In this document: piece by piece, positions 6,539-64,000 of the stretch
Layout of the letters: each line of letters starts with the position of its first letter
Numbering within the stretch: position 1 is the stretch's first letter
Source of the DNA: Streptomyces lydicus
Lineage (GTDB): Bacteria > Actinomycetota > Actinomycetes > Streptomycetales > Streptomycetaceae
Assembly: GCF_000717345.1 (NCBI RefSeq)
Contig: NZ_JNZA01000001.1
Span: 186,001 to 250,000 of the forward strand
Length of the DNA stretch: 64,000 nucleotides
Direction of reading: 5' to 3'
Made by a program: the position numbers and the translations under genes
Notes under the pieces: model-generated
What the model saw: the letters and a program-made list of their open reading frames with translations, nothing else
Told to the model about the DNA's origin: nothing
Databases searched by the model: none

Positions 6539-7999
6539 GTGGGGGCGGCTGAGGAAGCGGCTGGGGTGGCGGCGCTGCTGAAGGAGTGGAAGGACCGCTC
6601 CGGGTACAGCTACGGGGTGCTCGCGAAGCGACTGCACATGAGCACGTCGACGCTGCACCGTTATTGCAACGGCGACGCGGTTCCGACGGAGTACGCACCG
6701 CTTGAGCGCCTGGCACGGCTGTGCCGGGCGACGCCGGACGAGCTGGTGGAGCTGCACCGGCGGTGGATCCTGGCGGATGAGGCACGTCGGCGGGAGCGGG
6801 ATCGCAGGCAAGGGGGCGGGAACGCGCCGGTCGTTGAGCGGGGCGGGGAGGGGATAGTCGGGTCCGGGGCCAACTCCGAGGCCGAGGCCGGGAGCAAGTC
6901 CGGGCCCGGGTGCGGGTCCAAGAGCGAGACCGAGGCTGATGCGGCCGGGACTGAGCCCGAGGGCGTGCCGCCGACGGTGCCCGTCGCCGCGCTCGCCGGT
7001 TCCGCCTTCGCTTCCGGCTCCGGTCGGGTCACCTCGATCATTCCCGAGGGGCGGTCCGTGCGCCAGGCGGCGCACGCGGGCGGCCGGCAGCGTCTCGCGC
7101 TGGTCGCCGGGGCAGTGGTGGCCGCCGTGGCCGCGTCCGCCGCGCTGGTCGCCGGACTGGTCTCCGGTGGCGGCGACGGCCGTAGGGCGGAAGCCGGGGC
7201 GGCCACGAGGGCGGAGCGCGGCAGCGAGCCGACGCAGACCGGGGGCGGCCGGTCGGCGTCTGCGAAACCGCCCGGCGCGGGTGCCGCGAGTCCCTCCCCG
7301 TCCTCGTCCCCGTCCCCGTCGCGCACGTTCGAAGGCAAGGCGGGCGAAGCCGGCGACGGGGTGCCCGGCCCGGGCGCGGCCGATCGTGCCGGGCTCCCGG
7401 TGAGTGTGGATGTCCGTCCGTACAGCTGGGAGGACCCGTGCAGTCAGCGCTACTTGGTCGATCGGGACCCGGGCGAGATGCCCCCGCCGCCCACCGAACA
7501 GGACGCCCGGGGCTGGATCTCGGCGCTGGGCGCGGTCTCGGCGGACAGCCAGCGGGTCCAGGTGTCGGTGCAGGGTGCCGGTGACGCGACGGTGGTAGTG
7601 CATGCCCTGCGGGTGCGCGTGGTGGGAAGTTCGGCGCCACCCGCCTGGGACGCCTACAGCATGGGCGTGGGCTGTGGCGGTGGCATCACGCCCAAGTCGT
7701 TCGGGGTTGCCCTGGACGCGGCGCGGCCACAGATCACGCCGCAGAACGGACAGCGGGACTTCCCCTACAAGGCGAGCGAGCGGGACCCCGAGGTCTTCAC
7801 GATCCTCGCGCGGGCCGGTGCCCGCGACGTGCGCTGGTACATGGAGCTGGAGTGGTCCAGCGGGAACCGGCACGGCACGCTCCGGATCGACGACAACGGG
7901 GAGCCGTTCCGCACCAGCGGGATGGCGGGCCGGCCCCAGTACGACTACCCGCTGGGGGGCAGCAACAAGTGGGTCCCCGCCCCGAAGGAGAACGGCTGA
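6539..7999 (+). CDS. membrane-anchored helix-turn-helix protein
   Basis: A 486-residue protein with a GTG start. Residues 8-75 are an XRE-like helix-turn-helix of the Streptomyces type (LAKRLHMSTSTLHRYCNGDAVPTEY). A low-complexity Gly/Glu/Ser linker follows, with one membrane segment at about 184-209. A Pro/Ser-rich stretch leads to an extracytoplasmic C-terminal domain (about 295-486) that I cannot assign to a named family. The layout, DNA-binding inside and sensor outside, suggests a one-component membrane regulator. GAGGGAG just upstream serves as ribosome binding site. A perfect 13-bp hairpin follows the stop, and the next gene is convergent. Its target genes are unknown. Confidence 0.8.
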   Translation: MGAAEEAAGVAALLKEWKDRSGYSYGVLAKRLHMSTSTLHRYCNGDAVPTEYAPLERLARLCRATPDELVELHRRWILADEARRRERDRRQGGGNAPVVERGGEGIVGSGANSEAEAGSKSGPGCGSKSETEADAAGTEPEGVPPTVPVAALAGSAFASGSGRVTSIIPEGRSVRQAAHAGGRQRLALVAGAVVAAVAASAALVAGLVSGGGDGRRAEAGAATRAERGSEPTQTGGGRSASAKPPGAGAASPSPSSSPSPSRTFEGKAGEAGDGVPGPGAADRAGLPVSVDVRPYSWEDPCSQRYLVDRDPGEMPPPPTEQDARGWISALGAVSADSQRVQVSVQGAGDATVVVHALRVRVVGSSAPPAWDAYSMGVGCGGGITPKSFGVALDAARPQITPQNGQRDFPYKASERDPEVFTILARAGARDVRWYMELEWSSGNRHGTLRIDDNGEPFRTSGMAGRPQYDYPLGGSNKWVPAPKENG

Positions 8000-8000
8000 C

Positions 8001-8030
8001 CCCGGTTCCGGCGCGCACGCCGGAACCGGG
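8001..8030. terminator. strong bidirectional hairpin terminator
   Basis: A perfect 13-bp stem (CCCGGTTCCGGCG with CGCCGGAACCGGG) with a 4-nt loop begins one base after the stop of the HTH gene. It separates that gene from the convergent DUF4232 lipoprotein. Confidence 0.85.
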
Positions 8031-8056
8031 ACCCGACCGAGATCGGTGACGTCCCT

Positions 8057-8776
8057 TCACCAGGTCAGCGCGTCCTGGGCGGAGGTCTGCCAGTAGGTGA
8101 CCCACGCCGAACTGTCGGTGGTGATACCGCCCTTGGGCAGCGTGAACCGCACGGACGGGCCGGTGGAACCGTTCCCCGCCCGGTTGGCGAACAGTACGCG
8201 CAGGCTGCGCGCGGTGTAGCCACCGCTGCCGGAGCCGTCCGCGGACCGGTACATGATCCCCGCGTACGCCGACTGGCCCGGTGCGAGGGTGATCACGGCC
8301 TGCGGCTTGGACCTCTCCAGGAACGCGGTGGCGGCCTGGCCCTCGTCCCAGCGGAGGTACGGGGCGTTGTAGGCGTAGCAGGGCACGGAGCCGGTGTTGG
8401 TGGCGGTGAGGAGCATGTGGTTGACGGGGCGATTGACCTTGATCGCGGTGACCTTCACCCGCGCATTGGTGCAGGCGACGGTCGCCGAGTGGCTCCCGGA
8501 ACCCTGGCCGGCGGCCTGACCGGAGCCGTTCGTTCCATGGGGTCCGCTGCCGCCGGTGGCGCCCGACCCGGCCTTCGACGAGTGACCGTCCTTGGCCCGG
8601 CCCTTCGCATCCGCCGAGGACGGGGCGCCCTGGCCGCCGGTCTCGGGCGCGGAGGACGCGGCCGGTGCCTGGCTGCCGGTGTCCTTGGTGCCGTTCTCGC
8701 AGGCGGTCAGTGAGAGGGCGGCCGCCAGCACGGTGGCGGAGGCGGCGAGGCGGGTGGTGTGCCGGGCGATGCGCAT
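8057..8776 (-). CDS. DUF4232 lipoprotein
   Basis: A 239-residue secreted lipoprotein. The signal peptide ends in the lipobox LSLTAC (Cys near residue 26). It is followed by a long Ser/Gly/Ala/Lys-rich linker and a C-terminal DUF4232 domain (about 105-239; CTNARVKVTAIKV, GSVPCYAYNAPYLRWDEGQ, LAPGQSAYAGI). The domain has an immunoglobulin-like beta-sandwich fold and is common in Streptomyces; its function is not established. The ATG at 8776 is used because it starts the signal peptide; the frame stays open upstream but the extension has no signal features. A 40-codon membrane-protein gene lies just upstream on the same strand. Confidence 0.87.
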   Translation of the reverse strand: MRIARHTTRLAASATVLAAALSLTACENGTKDTGSQAPAASSAPETGGQGAPSSADAKGRAKDGHSSKAGSGATGGSGPHGTNGSGQAAGQGSGSHSATVACTNARVKVTAIKVNRPVNHMLLTATNTGSVPCYAYNAPYLRWDEGQAATAFLERSKPQAVITLAPGQSAYAGIMYRSADGSGSGGYTARSLRVLFANRAGNGSTGPSVRFTLPKGGITTDSSAWVTYWQTSAQDALTW

Positions 8777-8825
8777 GGTGAGTGGGTGCTTTCTCTTGCG
8801 GTGGGTCCGGTCGGCGGACGTGACG

Positions 8826-8948
8826 TCAGAGACGGCTGACGACCAGGAGGATGACGGTCGCTGCCGATGTGGCGAGCACCGCCAGGGCCACCGCGTCAGT
8901 GAGGACGTCGGGACGACGGAACCGGTGAATCCGGATGAGCGTCCGCAT
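8826..8948 (-). CDS. small single-span membrane protein (40 aa)
   Basis: A 40-residue open frame, MRTLIRIHRFRRPDVLTDAV and onward, ending in LLVVSRL. The N-terminal third is very basic (five Arg, one His). It is followed by one hydrophobic stretch (about residues 19-38) that would span the membrane with the basic end inside. AAGGGA sits about 7 bases upstream of the ATG. It precedes the DUF4232 lipoprotein on the same strand, with 49 bp between them, so the two may share a transcript. No family is recognised. It is short enough to be missed by automatic calling. Coding status rests on composition, ribosome binding site and position only. Confidence 0.5.
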   Translation of the reverse strand: MRTLIRIHRFRRPDVLTDAVALAVLATSAATVILLVVSRL

Positions 8949-9053
8949 GGCGTTTCCCTTCGGCATGACCTCGTCGATGCTTGCCGTCCCGAGCTTGCGA
9001 CGCCGTCCGTCCCAGCCGCCCCGGGCACCGCGAAAACCGGGACGCCGGAACGC

Positions 9054-10198
9054 TCATACTGCATCTGACCTGCGAGAACGGACCCTCCCTGGAACGCCGT
9101 GCAGGGACACGCCGGGCCGTCCGCCGAGCAGCGGCTGGCGTCCGCCGCGGCGCCGCAGTGCCGTCCGGGTCAGGACGGCCGCGCCCAGGGCGGCACCGAG
9201 CAGGCCGCCCGCCACCGGGGCGGGGTGGCGGGCCAGCGTCGTCAGGGGAGAGCCGGCGGCAGAGTGCTCGTCGAAGATGCCGTGGGTGCCGTAGTCGTGG
9301 CCGTCCTTGCCGTCGGCGGGTTCCCAGAGGTTGCTGGGCCGGTCCGCCGGCGACTCGCACGCCGGCACCGGTACGAGATCCAGCTCGGCCCGCAGCACGG
9401 TGACGAGCGTGCCCTCGCTGCCCACCAGGGCGCGGGCGAGGTCGAAGCCGTTCTCCGGCAGCAGCGAGTCGAGGTTGTAGCCCGACACCCGCCGCGGGAT
9501 CTTCGGGAAGCCCCGGCGGACGTCCCCCCCCGGTAGCGGTCGATGAGCTCCCGCGCCCCCTTGTACAGCTCCGCCCGGCGGCCACCGGCCGCCACGGCCC
9601 GCTCGTACTCCTCGTCCGAGGTGGGCCCGCCCCACATCCGGGCACCGTCGTAGGTGAGAATCTCCAGCCGCCGCACATTGTCGACGGTCTTGCCGTACGC
9701 CTGCGCCGACGCCCCACACGAGTTGTTGCCGATCATCCCGCCCAGCGAACAATGGCTGTGCGTAGACGGCTTCGGCCCGAACTGCAGCTTCTGGTCGGCG
9801 AGTTGGCGATTGAGCTCATCCAGGACGATGCCCGGCTCGACCACACAGGTGCGCCGCTCGGCATCCACCGACACCAAGCGGTTGCAGTACTTCGTCCAGT
9901 CGATGACGACGGCGGTATTGGTGCACTGCCCACCCAGGCTGGTCCCGCCGCCGCGGGAGAGCACCGGCGCCCCGAACTCCGCACACACCGCGACCGCGAC
10001 CGCCCCGGCCTCGACGCTCCGGGGCACCACCACCGCGATCGGCACCTGCCGGTAGTTCGAACCGTCGGTCGAGTAGGCGCCCCGGCTCCCCGCGTCGAAA
10101 CGCACCTCCCCGTCCACCCGCGCCCGCAGGGCCCGCCGCAGAGCCTTCGTACGCAGCCCGGGCACCGTGCCCTCCACGTCCCCTGCGCCGCGCTCCAT
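9054..10198 (-). pseudogene. broken FAD-linked oxidase (GlcD-like) joined to an SDR-type C-terminal tail
   Basis: The first about 220 codons from ATG 10198 (preceded by GGGAGG) encode the FAD-binding half of a GlcD/D-lactate-dehydrogenase-type oxidase (PIAVVVPRSVEAG, VLSRGGGTSLGGQ, VEPGIVLDELN, SLGGMIGNNSCG). The frame is lost at a run of eight C on the plus strand (9523-9531). Homology resumes in the next frame (GYNLDSLLPENGFDLARALVGSEGTL, split across the break). After ELDLVPVP the text changes to SNLWEPADGKDGHDYGTHGIFDEHS plus a hydrophobic, Arg-ended tail, which resembles the C-terminal tail of actinobacterial short-chain dehydrogenases. The substrate-binding half of the oxidase and any 4Fe-4S domain are absent. 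I read it as a deletion fusion plus frameshift; the frameshift alone could be a homopolymer sequencing error. Confidence 0.72.
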
Positions 10199-57128: not shown

Positions 57129-57449
57129 GGTCTCCCCGTGTGCCGGTGCGGTGCGCGCGGAAGTGCGGCGCCGTCGCTGCCCCGACGCTAGATCGTCCCG
57201 GCCCGCGCGTCCACGCCATTGCCGGTCAGGGACATTGGAGGCGTCTCCCAGCGCTTCACCCGCCAGGAGGCCGAGCGCTGGGAGTGAGTGGCAGGCACGG
57301 ACGACGAGCGCGACGGTGGCGGGGACGCGCCGACGTGACGCCGCCGGGCGCCCCACCTGGACCTTGTCCACCGCTACGCACGTCGTTTCCACCGCCGTCA
57401 TAGCGCCACCGCGGCGTGCGGCACGCGTTTCGCGGCAGGCGTCCGGCCG
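57129..57449. other. 321-bp intergenic stretch, nothing recognised
   Basis: The 3' flank of the purU end of the sarcosine operon and the 5' flank of the SDR. No gene, strong hairpin or repeat is evident. Confidence 0.5.
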
Positions 57450-58331
57450 TCAGCGGAGCACCACCGTGCGCCTGCCCTGGACGAACACCCGGCCCTCGCA
57501 GTGCCACCGGACGGCTCGGGCCAGGGCTGCCGATTCCGCGTCGCGGCCGATGGCGGCGAGGTCGTCGGGGGTGTGGCTGTGGTCGACGCTGATGACCTCC
57601 TGGGCGATGATCGGGCCTTCGTCGAGGTCGGCGGTGACGTAGTGGGCGGTCGCGCCGACGAGCTTGACGCCGCGCTCGTGGGCCTGGTGGTAGGGCTTGG
57701 CGCCCTTGAAGCTCGGCAGGAACGAGTGATGGATGTTGATCGTCCGGCCGGCCAGCCGGGTGCACAGGTCGTTGGAGAGGACCTGCATGTAGCGGGCCAG
57801 TACGACCAGGTCGACGGCGAACTCGTCGACGATCTGCAGGAGTTGGGCCTCTGCCTCGGGCTTGGTCGCGGAAGTGACCGGCACGTGGAAGAACGGGATG
57901 CCGTGCCAGCTGACGAGTGCCTCGTGGTCGGGGTGGTTGGAGACCACGGCGACCACGTCGAGGGGCAGGTCCCCGCTGCGGGTGCGGAAGAGCAGGTCGT
58001 TGAGGCAGTGGCCGTGGCGGGACACCATCACCAGCACGCGGCGCCGGGTGCCGGCCGGTTCGAGGTGCCACCGCATCGCGAACGGGGCGGCCACGGCGGC
58101 GAAGTTCCGGCGCAGCAGCTCGGTGCTGTTCTCGTTGCCGGAGGTGGCGAAGCGCACCCGCATGAAGAAGTGGCCGTCGCGACGGTCACCGAACTGATGG
58201 TTGTCGATGATGTCGCTGCCGTGTTCCAGGAGGAACCGCGAGACGGCGTGCACGATGCCGGGGGCCTCGGGTCAGTCGACGGTGAGCACGTGCTCGACGG
58301 TGGCCGTGGCGGAAGCTGCGAGATCAGTCAT
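57450..58331 (-). CDS. purU: formyltetrahydrofolate deformylase with an in-frame UGA at the conserved Cys
   Basis: PurU hydrolyses 10-formyl-THF to formate and THF. The catalytic formyltransferase-like domain is intact: NPHD-like VVSNHPDHEAL, INIHHSFLPSFKGAKPYHQA (catalytic His) and TADLDEGPIIAQ (Asp), total about 293 codons. The N-terminal ACT domain begins at ATG 58331 (MTDLAASATATVEHVLTVD), 4 bp after the soxG stop. It is interrupted by TGA at codon 20 (58274-58272) and resumes PEAPGIVHAVSRFLLEHG in the same frame. In PurU this position is the conserved Cys of the (T/S)CPD motif, so TGC or TGT has become TGA. Translation might restart at GTG 58253, giving an enzyme with a damaged ACT domain. 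Confidence 0.88.
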
Positions 58332-58335
58332 GGTG

Positions 58336-58974
58336 TCAGCACTCGATTACGTTGACGGGGCCGCGGTACTCGCTCATCGCATCGAGGAGCCAGCGCGCCA
58401 GGTAGTCGGCGAACGAGGACCGCGGGAACAGCCGGTACGTGGGCGTGTCGTCGACCTGCCAGAGCAGCACCGCGACGGGGCCCACCGTGGTCGACACGGC
58501 CCGGCCGGGTGCGAAGGACCGGGGATGCAGGTCCAGCGGGCAGCCCTTCTCCAGGACCTGCCGGGCGGCCGGGCCGCTCAGCTCCAGCGTGGTGCGGTTC
58601 GCCGAGACGTCCACGACCGAGCCCGGGTCGCCTCCGAGCGCCGCCCGCAACTCGGCGGTCACAGCAGTCGATTCGGCCTGGGACAGCACGAGCCACTCGT
58701 CGGGACCGAGCCAGGCGACCGTGTGCGGGCCGGATGTGGTGGTGCGGCCGCACTCGCGGGGGAGTGGCGTACGCAGGGTCTTCTCGATGCGGGCGGCCGC
58801 TTCGGAAGCGGGGGCGACGCGCAGGTTCACCATGGTGAGGAACGGCCACTCGGTCAGCGTGACGCCGCGGGCGCCGGTGACGGCGGCGGCGCGCATCCGC
58901 TCCGCCAGATGTGCCAGGGGGCTCCTGCGCAGTGCGACGGGACCTGCGCCCGCGTCGATCGTCGGCTCAGCCAT
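58336..58974 (-). CDS. soxG: sarcosine oxidase gamma subunit
   Basis: A 212-residue gamma subunit of heterotetrameric sarcosine oxidase, with the GcvT/YgfZ-like fold. Visible features: [67 protein letters not shown] and [11 protein letters not shown], then a C-terminal [19 protein letters not shown] 58974 overlaps the end of soxA by 8 bp, and AAGCGAG serves as ribosome binding site. The stop is 4 bp before purU. The subunit caps the alpha subunit and completes the enzyme. Confidence 0.92.
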
Positions 58975-61909
58975 CTCGCTTGGTCCCTTCGGGGTCGTAG
59001 AGGACGGGTTCGGTGACCTGCACGGGTACGAGGGCGTCGCCGACGGGGGCGAAGAGGGTGTCGCCGACGCGGTCCCGGCCGGCGGCGACCAGGGCGAGGG
59101 CGAACGGGCGGCCCAGCGCCTCGCTGTGGTAACTGGAGGTGACGTGGCCGAGCATCGGCACCGGTCCGGCCTCGGGGGTGAGGGGCACGTCCGGCGCGAT
59201 GAGCTGGGTGCCCTCGGGCAGCCGGGTCGTGCGGTCGCTGGGCAGCAGGCCGACCAGGTGCTTGCGGTCGGTACGGGAGGTGTCGGCGCGGGAGTAGGAC
59301 CGCTTTCCGACGAAGTCCTTCTGCTTGGAGACCACCCAGGACATGCCCGCGTCCTGCGGGGTGACGGTGCCGTCGGTGTCCTGACCGACGATGATGTAGC
59401 CCTTCTCGGCCCGCAGGACGTGCATGGTCTCGGTGCCGTACGGCGTGATGTCGTACGGGCGGCCGATCGCATCCACCTCCTCCCAGACCGCCAGGCCGTA
59501 CCACGCGGAGACGTTGATCTCGTAGGCGAGTTCGCCGGAGAAGGAGATCCGGCAGATGCGGGCCGGGACCCCGGAGGCCAGGGTGGTCTCGCGGAAGGCC
59601 ATGAACGGGAACGCTTCGGCGGACAGGTCGACGTCGGGCGCGAGCTGGGCGACGACCTCGCGGGAGCGGGGGCCGACGACGGCGATCGTCGTCCACTGCT
59701 CGGTCACCGACGTGCAGTGGACGTCGAGGTCGGGCCACTCGGTCTGCAGCCACTCCTCCAGCCAGTCCAGGACCCCGGCGGCGCCGCCGGTCGTGGTGGT
59801 CATGAAGTAGCGGTTGTCGTCGAGGCGCAGCGTCACGCCGTCGTCGAAGATCATGCCGTCGGGCTTGCACATGACGCCGTAGCGGGCCATGCCGGGCTTC
59901 AGCTTCTTGAAGGCGTTGGTGTAGATGCGGTTGAGGAACTCGCCGGCGTCCGCGCCCCAGATCTCGATCTTGCCGAGGGTGGAGGCGTCCATGAACGCCA
60001 CGCCGTCACGGGCCGCGCGGCACTCGCGGGCCACGGCCGTGTCCATGTCCTCACCGGGCAGCGGGTAGTACCGGGGGCGCTTCCACTGCCCGACATCCTC
60101 GAACTCCGCGCCGTGCGCGAGGTGCCAGCTGTGGAGAGACGTGGTCCGCTCCGGGTCGAACAGCTCGCCGCGCTCACGCCCGGCGAGGGCGGCGAAGGCC
60201 ACCGGCGTGTAGGGCGCGCGGTAGGCCGTGGTGCCGATCTCCCCGGGTGACGCGCCCGCGCCGAGGGCCTCGGCGATCACCCCGATCGCGTTGACGCCGG
60301 ACGTCTTGCCCTGGTCGTTGGCCGTGCCGAGCGAGGTGTAGCGCTTGACGTGCTCGACGCCGCGCATGCCGGCGCCGGTGGAGCGCCAGACGTCGGCGAC
60401 GGTGACATCGCGCTGCAGATCGACGAAGTGGGTGTCCCACGTACCGGGGTCGCCGTCCGCACCGCTGCCGGAGCCGTCGTCGGAGCCGTTGTGGGGGGCA
60501 GGCACCAGCCACAGTTCGCGCACCGGGCCCGCGCCGGCCCCGGGCCGCGCCGCGCCGGACGGCGGCGCGGGCACCGGGACCGGGAAGCCGGCGTCCGTCG
60601 CGGCGCGCGCACCGGCCACCGCCCCTTCGGCCAGACAGCCGTCGAGGTCGTACGTCCCGCGGCCCGCACCGACGACGTGCTGGTCCCGTACGGTGCCGTC
60701 GGGGACGAAGGCGACCAGGTCCTCGTCCCAGCGCAGCCGGCCCTGGCGCTGACTGTGCAGGTGCACGACCGGGCTCCAGCCGCCCGAGACGGCGAGCAGG
60801 TCGCAGTCGAACGACTGCGGGGCACCGGTGAGTTGACCGTTCTCGTCGAGCGCCTGGGCGGTGACGCCGGTGAGCCGGCCGTCGCCCGCGGTGTCGACCA
60901 CCGCGCTGCCCGTCAGTACCCGCACGCCGGTCGCCTCGGCGACCTCGGCGGCCCGGTGGGACAGTTCGGGGCGCGCGTCCACGACGGCGGCGATGTCGAT
61001 CCCGGCGGCGTGGAGGTCGGCGACCGTGTCGTAGGCGCTGTCGTTGGTCGTGCTGACCACGGCCCGCGAACCCGCAGCCACGCCGTAGCGGTTGAGGTAC
61101 GAGCGCACCGCCGCGGCGAGCATGACGCCGGGCCGGTCGTTGCCGGCGAAGACCAGCGGACGCTCGTGCGCGCCGGTCGCCAGGACCACCTGGCGGGCGC
61201 GGATGTGCCACAGCCGCTGGCGGGAGACGCCTTCGGACGGCGCGGGGGCCCCGGCTCCGAGGTGGTCGGTGCGCGCCTGAAGGGCCAGCACGTAGTTGTC
61301 GTCGTACGCACCGAACGCCGTGGTGCGCGGCAGGACGGTGACCTCGGGAGCGGCGTCGAGCGCCGCGCGGATGTCGGCGACCCAGGCGAGAGCGGGCTGC
61401 GCGCCGATCGTCTCGGTGCGTCCGGAGAGCAGCGCACCGCCGGGCTCGGGCTGGGCGTCGACGAGGATCACGCGGGCGCCGGAGTCGGCGGCAGCAGCGG
61501 CGGCCGCGAGCCCGGCCGGTCCCGCGCCGACGACCAGGACGTCGGTGTGGACGTACTTCTTGTCGTAGACGGCGGGATCGGGGGCCGGGTCGAGCCGGCC
61601 CATCCCGGACAAGGTCGTCGCGGCCAGCCCGTCGGACAGCTCGACAGCGGTGGCCGGCAGCATCCCTTCCGAGCACGGTCCGGCGATCTGGAGCAGTGCG
61701 TTGGGCTCCTCGACGCCGGCGGCGACGATGCCGCGCGGGCGGCCGCGGTAGAGGGACGGCGCGACCTCGGCGATGCCGTTGGCGAGCATCGCGGAGGCGA
61801 CGGTGTCACCGGGGTGGCCGGTCAGCTCGCGGCCGTCGACGGTGAAGCGCAGGGTGGTGGCGCGGTCGACGCGGCCGGCGTGCGGCAGCCGGTGGGTCTG
61901 GTCGGTCAT
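58967..61909 (-). CDS. soxA: sarcosine oxidase alpha subunit
   Basis: A 980-residue alpha subunit. Residues about 15-105 are the 2Fe-2S-ferredoxin-like N-terminal domain without iron ligands ([20 protein letters not shown]). Residues about 120-450 are the NAD-binding two-dinucleotide-fold part ([38 protein letters not shown]). Residues about 585-970 are the GcvT-like THF-binding domain ([40 protein letters not shown]). The enzyme oxidises sarcosine to glycine and transfers the methyl carbon to THF as 5,10-methylene-THF. A Gly/Ser/Asp-rich insertion lies near 475-490. ATG 61909 overlaps the soxD stop by 4 bp. Confidence 0.95.
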
Positions 61910-62232
61910 CGGTTCCCTCCGGCCGCTTCGGCGGTCTGGTGGAGATCACGCAGGGTGGGGAGCTCGGGGCGGGGCTCGTCGAGCCGGTAGACGGCGAGGA
62001 CGTCGTAACTGACGGTGTCGCGCAGCACGTTGAACCAGCGGCGGCAGCCGAGGCTGTGCATCCATCGCTCGGCGAAGTGGCCCTTGGGGTTGTCGCGGTA
62101 GAAGACGTACTCGGCCCACTGCTCGTCGGTGAGGTCCGCGGGCGTCTCGGGGTACGGCACGTGGGCCTGTCCTCCGTAGTGGTACTCGGTCTCGTCACGC
62201 GGACCGCACCAGGGGCAGCTGATCAGCAGCAC
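61906..62232 (-). CDS. soxD: sarcosine oxidase delta subunit
   Basis: A 108-residue zinc-binding delta subunit. The zinc ligands match the known structure: Cys6 and Cys9 in SCPWCG, His59 and Cys63 in [16 protein letters not shown]. It has [20 protein letters not shown] in the middle and a slightly long C-terminus. It is encoded between soxB (23-bp gap) and soxA (4-bp overlap), the usual gene order B-D-A-G. It stabilises the alpha-subunit interface and has no catalytic role. Confidence 0.95.
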
Positions 62233-62255: not shown

Positions 62256-63476
62256 TCAGTGGGCCACGGCCGCGGCGCCGTGTTCGTCGACCAGTGCGCC
62301 CGTGGTGAAGCGCTCAAGGGCGAAGGGGGCGTTCAGCGGATGGGGTGCGCCGGTGGCGATGGTGTGCGCGAAGGTCAGGCCGGCGGCCGGGGTGGCCTTG
62401 AAGCCGCCGGTGCCCCAGCCGCAGTTGACGTAGAGGTTCTCGATCGGCGTGGTGCCGATGACGGGGGACGCGTCGGGCGTGACGTCGACGATGCCGCCCC
62501 AGGTGCGCAGCACGTGGGCGCGGGCGAAGACCGGGAAGAGCTCGACGGCGGCCGCCATCTGGTGCTCGATCACATGGAAGGAGCCGCGCTGGCCGTACCC
62601 GTTGTACGCGTCGACGCCCGCGCCCATCACCAGCTCGCCCTTGTGCGCCTGGGAGACGTAGACGTGCACGTGGTTGGACATCACCACGGTGGGGTGCACC
62701 GGCTCGTGCAGTTCGGAGACCAGCGCCTGGAGGGGGTGGGACTGCACCGGCAGCCGGAAGCCCGCGCGCTGTGCCAGCACGCTGCTGTGCCCGGCGGCCG
62801 CGAGGCCGACCCGGCCGGCGAGGATGCGGCCGCGGCTGGTCTCGACGCCGACGACCCGGTCACCGTCCTTGAGGAAGCCGGTGACCTCGCACCCCTGGAT
62901 CAGGTCGACGCCCATCTCGTCGGCCCGGCGGGCGAGCGCCCAGGCGACGTGGTCGTGCTTGGCGATGCCGGCCCGCGGTTGGTAGGTGCCGCCGAGGACC
63001 GGGTACCGGGTGTCGGCCGAGACGTTGAGGATCGGGCAGACCTTGGCGACCTCGTCCGGTTCGAGCCATTCGGCGTCGACACCGTTGAGGCGGTTGGCGT
63101 TGACCCGGCGTACGCCTTCGCGGACGTCCTGCAGGGTGTGCGCGAGGTTGAGCACGCCGCGCTGGCTGAACAGGAAGTCGTAATCCAGCTCCTCCGGCAG
63201 CTGTTCCCACAGCTTGAGCGCGTGCTCGTAGATCGCGGCGCTCTCGTCCCACAGGTAGTTGGAGCGGATGATCGTGGTGTTCCGCGCCATGTTGCCGCCG
63301 GCCAGCCAGCCCTTCTCCAGGACGGCGACATTGGTGATGCCGTGGTGCTTGGCGAGGTAGTAGGCGGTGGCCAGACCGTGACCGCCACCGCCGATGATGA
63401 CGACGTCGTACGAGGAGCGCGGCTCGGGGTTGCGCCAGAGCCAGTCGGGGTGCTCCGGGAGGGGCGTGGTGGTCAT
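62256..63476 (-). CDS. soxB: sarcosine oxidase beta subunit
   Basis: A 406-residue DAO-family flavoprotein where sarcosine is oxidised. It has the FAD motif [40 protein letters not shown], and [38 protein letters not shown] contains the His (174/176) in the region of the covalent FMN attachment of characterised beta subunits. The C-terminal [20 protein letters not shown] and [15 protein letters not shown] blocks are typical. ATG 63476 overlaps the glyA stop by 4 bp. Length equals the family norm (about 405). Confidence 0.95.
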
Positions 63477-64000
63477 CCGGCGAATCCGTTCCGGTCGGCG
63501 TAGAGGGGGAACTTCTCGGCGAGCGTGGTGACGCGGCCGCGCAGCTCATCGGTGTGTGCGTCGGTGAGTTCCTCCCTGAGGGCGAGCGCGATGATGTCGG
63601 CGACCTCGCGGAACTCCCCGGCCCCGAAGCCCCGGGTGGCCAGGGCCGGGGTGCCGATCCGCAGCCCGGAGGAGATCATCGGCGGGCGCGGGTCGAACGG
63701 CACCGCGTTGCGGTTGACGGTGATGCCGATGCGGTGCAGCCGATCCTCGGCCTGCTGCCCGTCGAGAGCGGAGTTCCGCAGGTCGACGAGGACCAGGTGA
63801 ACTTCGGTGCCGCCCGTCAGCACCGTGATCCCGGCCTCGGCCACATCGTCGGCCAGCAACCGTCCGGCCAGGATCCGGGCGCCGTCGAGGGTGCGCTGCT
63901 GGCGCTCCTTGAACGCCTCGCCCGCCGCCACCTTGAAGGCCACCGCCTTCGCCGCGATGACGTGCTCCAGCGGACCGCCCTGCTGACCGGGGAAGACCGC
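63473..64000 (-). CDS. glyA: serine hydroxymethyltransferase, 5' end outside window
   Basis: The C-terminal about 175 codons of SHMT; the frame is open to the right edge. It reads [20 protein letters not shown] at the edge and continues [52 protein letters not shown] and [10 protein letters not shown]. These are the conserved C-terminal PLP-enzyme blocks, including the Arg that binds the substrate carboxylate ([10 protein letters not shown]). The PLP lysine lies outside the window. As the first visible gene of the sox operon it would convert the glycine and methylene-THF made from sarcosine into serine. Stop overlaps soxB by 4 bp. Confidence 0.95.

Follow-up and report, generated by a model that had tools for sequence, protein, structure and literature searches.

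purU in the sarcosine operon is interrupted by a single TGA codon

Within the window, the 64,000-nucleotide stretch of DNA analysed here, a glyA-like gene, soxB, soxD, soxA, soxG and a purU frame lie one behind the other on the same strand (Table 1). The arrangement glyA-soxBDAG-purU is a sarcosine demethylation operon in which purU stands behind glyA-soxBDAG. A scan of positions 57200-58500 for promoters and terminators on both strands found none.

Table 1. Features of the operon and of the interrupted purU frame, in window coordinates
Feature	Coordinates	Strand	Remarks
purU (formyltetrahydrofolate deformylase) frame	57450..58331	-	starts at ATG 58331, ends with TGA 57450; stop at codon 20
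Internal TGA in place of the conserved N-terminal Cys codon	58272..58274	-	codon 20 of purU
Longest remaining ORF in the purU frame	57450..58253	-	GTG start, 267 aa; formyl transferase domain kept, Pfam ACT undetected in the domain search
Hairpin	58223..58236	-	5 bp, 4-nt loop (UCCU); begins at the 36th nt after the UGA
soxG	58336..58974	-	above cut-off for Pfam SoxG; 138.8 bits for TIGR01375, slightly short of its cut-off of 143.95
soxA, sarcosine oxidase alpha subunit	58967..61909	-	open frame
soxD, sarcosine oxidase delta subunit	61906..62232	-	open frame
soxB, sarcosine oxidase beta subunit	62256..63476	-	open frame
Serine hydroxymethyltransferase (glyA-like)	63473..64000	-	C-terminal part; truncated where the window ends

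Read on the minus strand from ATG 58331, the purU frame gives MTDLAASATATVEHVLTVD, a TGA (58274-58272) and then PEAPGIVHAVSRF..., and stays open until a second TGA (57452-57450). It comprises 293 codons ahead of the terminal TGA, the internal stop counted among them. An uninterrupted PurU reading frame is thus not present, owing to the TGA at codon 20. When the stop is read through, the product matches the PurU model TIGR00655 with 342.2 bits (cut-off 285.95). The domain search on this product found formyl transferase at 146.4 bits (cut-off 26.1) and ACT at 27.6 bits (cut-off 27). The frame being open elsewhere, these matches confirm the original prediction that a lone TGA lies inside an otherwise intact purU. 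The match to PurU (TIGR00655, PRK06027) is full length besides the stop, with both domains and the position behind soxBDAG; unlike PurU, the window copy has TGA rather than a Cys codon at codon 20.

Relatives carry a cysteine codon at the site

We compared the interrupted codon with the site in database proteins and in related genes. In the best 120 of 4837 proteins at E values up to 1e-100 (8000 candidates scored), 117 have Cys at the site, and the other three (P0049, P0052 and P0097) do not cover the position; a lesion may be present there in some relative. The closest of these 120 proteins, P0001, is 98% identical, represents 24 member sequences annotated as 'MULTISPECIES' Streptomyces, and has Cys, as does P0002 from S. 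lydicus (97% identical). Cys also occupies the site in all three PDB PurU alignments shown (3n0v, 3obi and 3lou). A TGA would not be visible in predicted proteins, which makes the count of Cys at the protein level weaker evidence than the codons read in nucleotide sequences.

At the nucleotide level, the aligned codon in the best 80 of 593 confirmed loci from genome contigs was TGC in 69, TGT in 10 and GGC (Gly) in one. A Cys codon is thus present in 79 of these 80 loci and TGA in none, in a sample from which records very near the window's own genome are possibly missing. A plasmid search returned 569 records, 14 of them with at least 80% query coverage.

We extended the comparison to 392 genomes of the genus, the window's own included, drawn from a larger group and with up to six candidates scored per genome. 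Some purU match was present in all 392. A close ortholog (78-96% identity) was found in 17 of the 391 other genomes, with a Cys codon in every one of the 17. The codon was read in 33 loci: 29 from other genomes (28 TGC and one TGT, hence Cys throughout), the window's TGA, a paralog from its own genome (TGC), and two further own-genome matches that do not cover the site (L102 and L103). Among the matches listed for the 392 genomes, only the window's own copy has a stop in purU. The TGA therefore sits at the conserved Cys of PurU, as had been proposed from the sequence, and the comparison of TGC with TGA that had been suggested as a check returned Cys codons, with no TGA in the best 80 of 593 loci or in the 29 genus loci.

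Selenocysteine machinery and RNA structure after the UGA

To evaluate a selenocysteine reading of the UGA, we searched the genome, a draft of 8.18 Mb in 131 contigs with a listed completeness of 100% and contamination of 0.03, for selA, selB, selD and tRNA-Sec. No match to TIGR00474 (selA) was found, with 5 of 5 candidates scored; of the 14 control genomes, one scored above the cut-off. For selB (TIGR00475), none of 11 matches passed the cut-off (best 205.4 versus 242.25 bits; 2 of 14 controls above it), and the best match spans only model positions 1-268 of 581. The four selD matches (TIGR00476) likewise remained below the cut-off (best 90.5 versus 125 bits; 2 of 14 controls above it). Since every selB- and selD-like match is sub-cutoff and covers its model only in part, we rejected them as selenocysteine genes; presumably they represent other translation GTPases and AIRS-type synthases.

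The tRNA-Sec model RF01852, for which 150 of 2122 first-look candidates were scored, gave seven matches and none above the gathering score (best 44.8 versus 47 bits; 5 of 14 controls above it). ARAGORN assigned these seven to Ser, Gly, Cys, Ser, Met, Leu and Gly tRNAs. Across the stretches holding all 67 tRNA-family matches (30 in search loci and 37 fetched), to which the ARAGORN analysis was confined, a single UCA anticodon was called, in a tRNA-SeC at L148:1559-1656 on contig C13 (the same gene as L149:867-964; anticodon TCA). This call shares 16 nt with the 3' end of a tRNA-Val (1501-1574). Its TCA comes from the loop of a 16-bp hairpin that follows the tRNA-Val and serves as the anticodon arm, and the sole tRNA that Rfam reports there at E values up to 10 is the tRNA-Val. 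On these three grounds we judged the call a false positive.

The hairpin noted in the original prediction is present (Table 1), and the region around it is not more structured than chance. The folding energy of the 60 nt starting with the UGA is -19.2 kcal/mol, compared with a mean of -20.75 for shuffled sequences (z +0.50; 131 of the 200 shuffles folded equally well or better). SECIS potential was judged here by shuffle folding, and bacterial SECIS elements vary. With selA unmatched, selB, selD and tRNA-Sec represented by sub-cutoff matches only, and no TGA at the site in the relatives read, the possibility that the UGA encodes selenocysteine is not supported.

A second purU and the divergence of the operon copy

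The genome contains a second, intact purU (C66:20482-21339) that is 62% identical to the operon copy and has TGC at the site. This paralog could make loss of the operon purU tolerable.

Compared with the nearest sampled genome (G137), the operon purU shows 29 nucleotide differences, codon 20 included, of which 18 fall at third positions. When codon 20 is left out, 16 differences are synonymous and 12 nonsynonymous, corresponding to a dN/dS of 0.248; soxG, compared in the same way over 195 codons, has a value of 0.344. Aligned with seven close proteins, and leaving the stop aside, the window PurU stands alone at one residue (124) where the other seven agree; the corresponding numbers are one for P0001 and two for P0002. 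The dN/dS of 0.248 and the lack of damage beyond the stop give no sign of long relaxation or decay, a pattern that fits a recent mutation and a base error equally well. The lesion is therefore either recent or not real.

Apparent gene loss in the sarcosine operon

Other loci differ from the window in what lies between soxG and purU. Two of them (L117 and L119) carry an additional gene there, with the C-terminus GGLAVNVIEC, that looks to us like sdaA (L-serine dehydratase). Apparent sdaA remnants, read by eye, are found in L104, L105, L110 and L113. In 10 further loci purU directly follows soxG; no soxG was found in L120. The sdaA-like gene seems to have been deleted or reduced in several lineages. 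In the window, soxG closes with six codons (VNVIEC, 58356-58339, minus strand) that match the tail of the sdaA-like gene. Since soxG and the sdaA-like gene share this ending, deletion of sdaA has apparently left its tail fused to the window soxG.

In G137, homology to the window ends inside soxA at window position 60275 (L163, around 7763-9682), and no soxB over the cut-off was found in the genome, so that the sarcosine oxidase operon looks broken there. Both purU and soxG are intact in G137 (L163). The sarcosine operon thus commonly loses parts, a trend into which a nonsense mutation in purU would fit.

Interpretation of the interrupted codon

The original prediction had left three readings of the TGA: a nonsense mutation, a base-call error, and selenocysteine or readthrough. 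The Cys codons of the relatives and the lack of selenocysteine genes over cut-off leave a nonsense mutation or a base error. We consider it probable that the purU copy of the sarcosine operon has undergone a recent nonsense mutation, private to this strain within the sampled relatives. The window gene resembles a nonsense pseudogene of a duplicated gene in its one stop, in the intact paralog elsewhere and in the lack of the stop in the relatives read. Unlike such pseudogenes, it has no further decay yet, as would be seen with a recent change or an error.

The latter alternative, a consensus base error in the 131-contig assembly with the gene intact in the organism, is unlikely but by no means negligible. 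It would suit the draft state of the assembly, a TGA that differs by a single base from the Cys codon present in each of the 17 close orthologs, and a gene that is otherwise undamaged and shows a pattern of purifying selection. Against it stand the listed completeness and contamination of the assembly, although these are no measure of base accuracy, and the lower frequency of isolated consensus substitutions as compared with indel errors. It is also improbable, and more so, that reinitiation or internal initiation at GTG 58253 yields a shortened working PurU of 267 aa that lacks the first ACT strand. Such a form would keep the formyl transferase domain and scores 324.1 bits against TIGR00655 (cut-off 285.95), but Pfam ACT is undetected in it, and the codon aligned with GTG 58253 is GTC in 14 and GTG in 3 of the 17 close orthologs (by eye), with no conserved internal start apparent in this group. 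In the more distant paralog group GTG is common at this position, as a Val codon within intact genes.

A selenocysteine PurU would, to our knowledge, have been a new selenoprotein family. A UGA at a conserved Cys is the usual pattern of a selenoprotein candidate, and PMC1242214 gives a conserved Cys aligned with UGA as a criterion for such candidates; bacterial selenoprotein genes such as that for formate dehydrogenase alpha share with the window gene a UGA where homologs have Cys. Unlike them, the window purU lies in a genome in which no selenocysteine machinery was found, is not followed by a supported SECIS and has no TGA homolog among the loci read. PMC5029168 describes SelB as fully consistent with the selenocysteine trait across more than 5200 genomes and lists Arthrobacter crystallopoietes BAB-32 as having gained the trait; even this strain has TGC at the site (L055). 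A literature search pairing formyltetrahydrofolate deformylase with selenocysteine returned a single match, on oxygen deprivation in E. coli. Furthermore, purU itself terminates in TGA, so that simple UGA suppression would extend the product. On the absence of selenocysteine genes and tRNA-Sec, the chance-level structure after the UGA, the false UCA anticodon and the lack of a TGA homolog among the loci read, we rejected selenocysteine in purU; recoding of the UGA, or its reading by a suppressor tRNA, to give full-length PurU is extremely unlikely.

If the TGA is a nonsense mutation, the UGA at codon 20 would end translation after 19 codons, and the operon's PurU would be lost or nearly so. 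The intact paralog would then cover hydrolysis of formyl-THF, through which THF from sarcosine demethylation is recycled. We see only a very slim chance that scarce or ACT-altered PurU, made by low-level UGA readthrough or from the GTG 58253 start, acts beside the paralog and tunes one-carbon output rather than abolishing it.

A UGA aligned with Cys can mimic a new selenoprotein, and a check of the genome for selenocysteine machinery together with the codon in relatives sets that reading aside. The window purU is an accessory gene whose stop is either a lesion private to the strain or an error.
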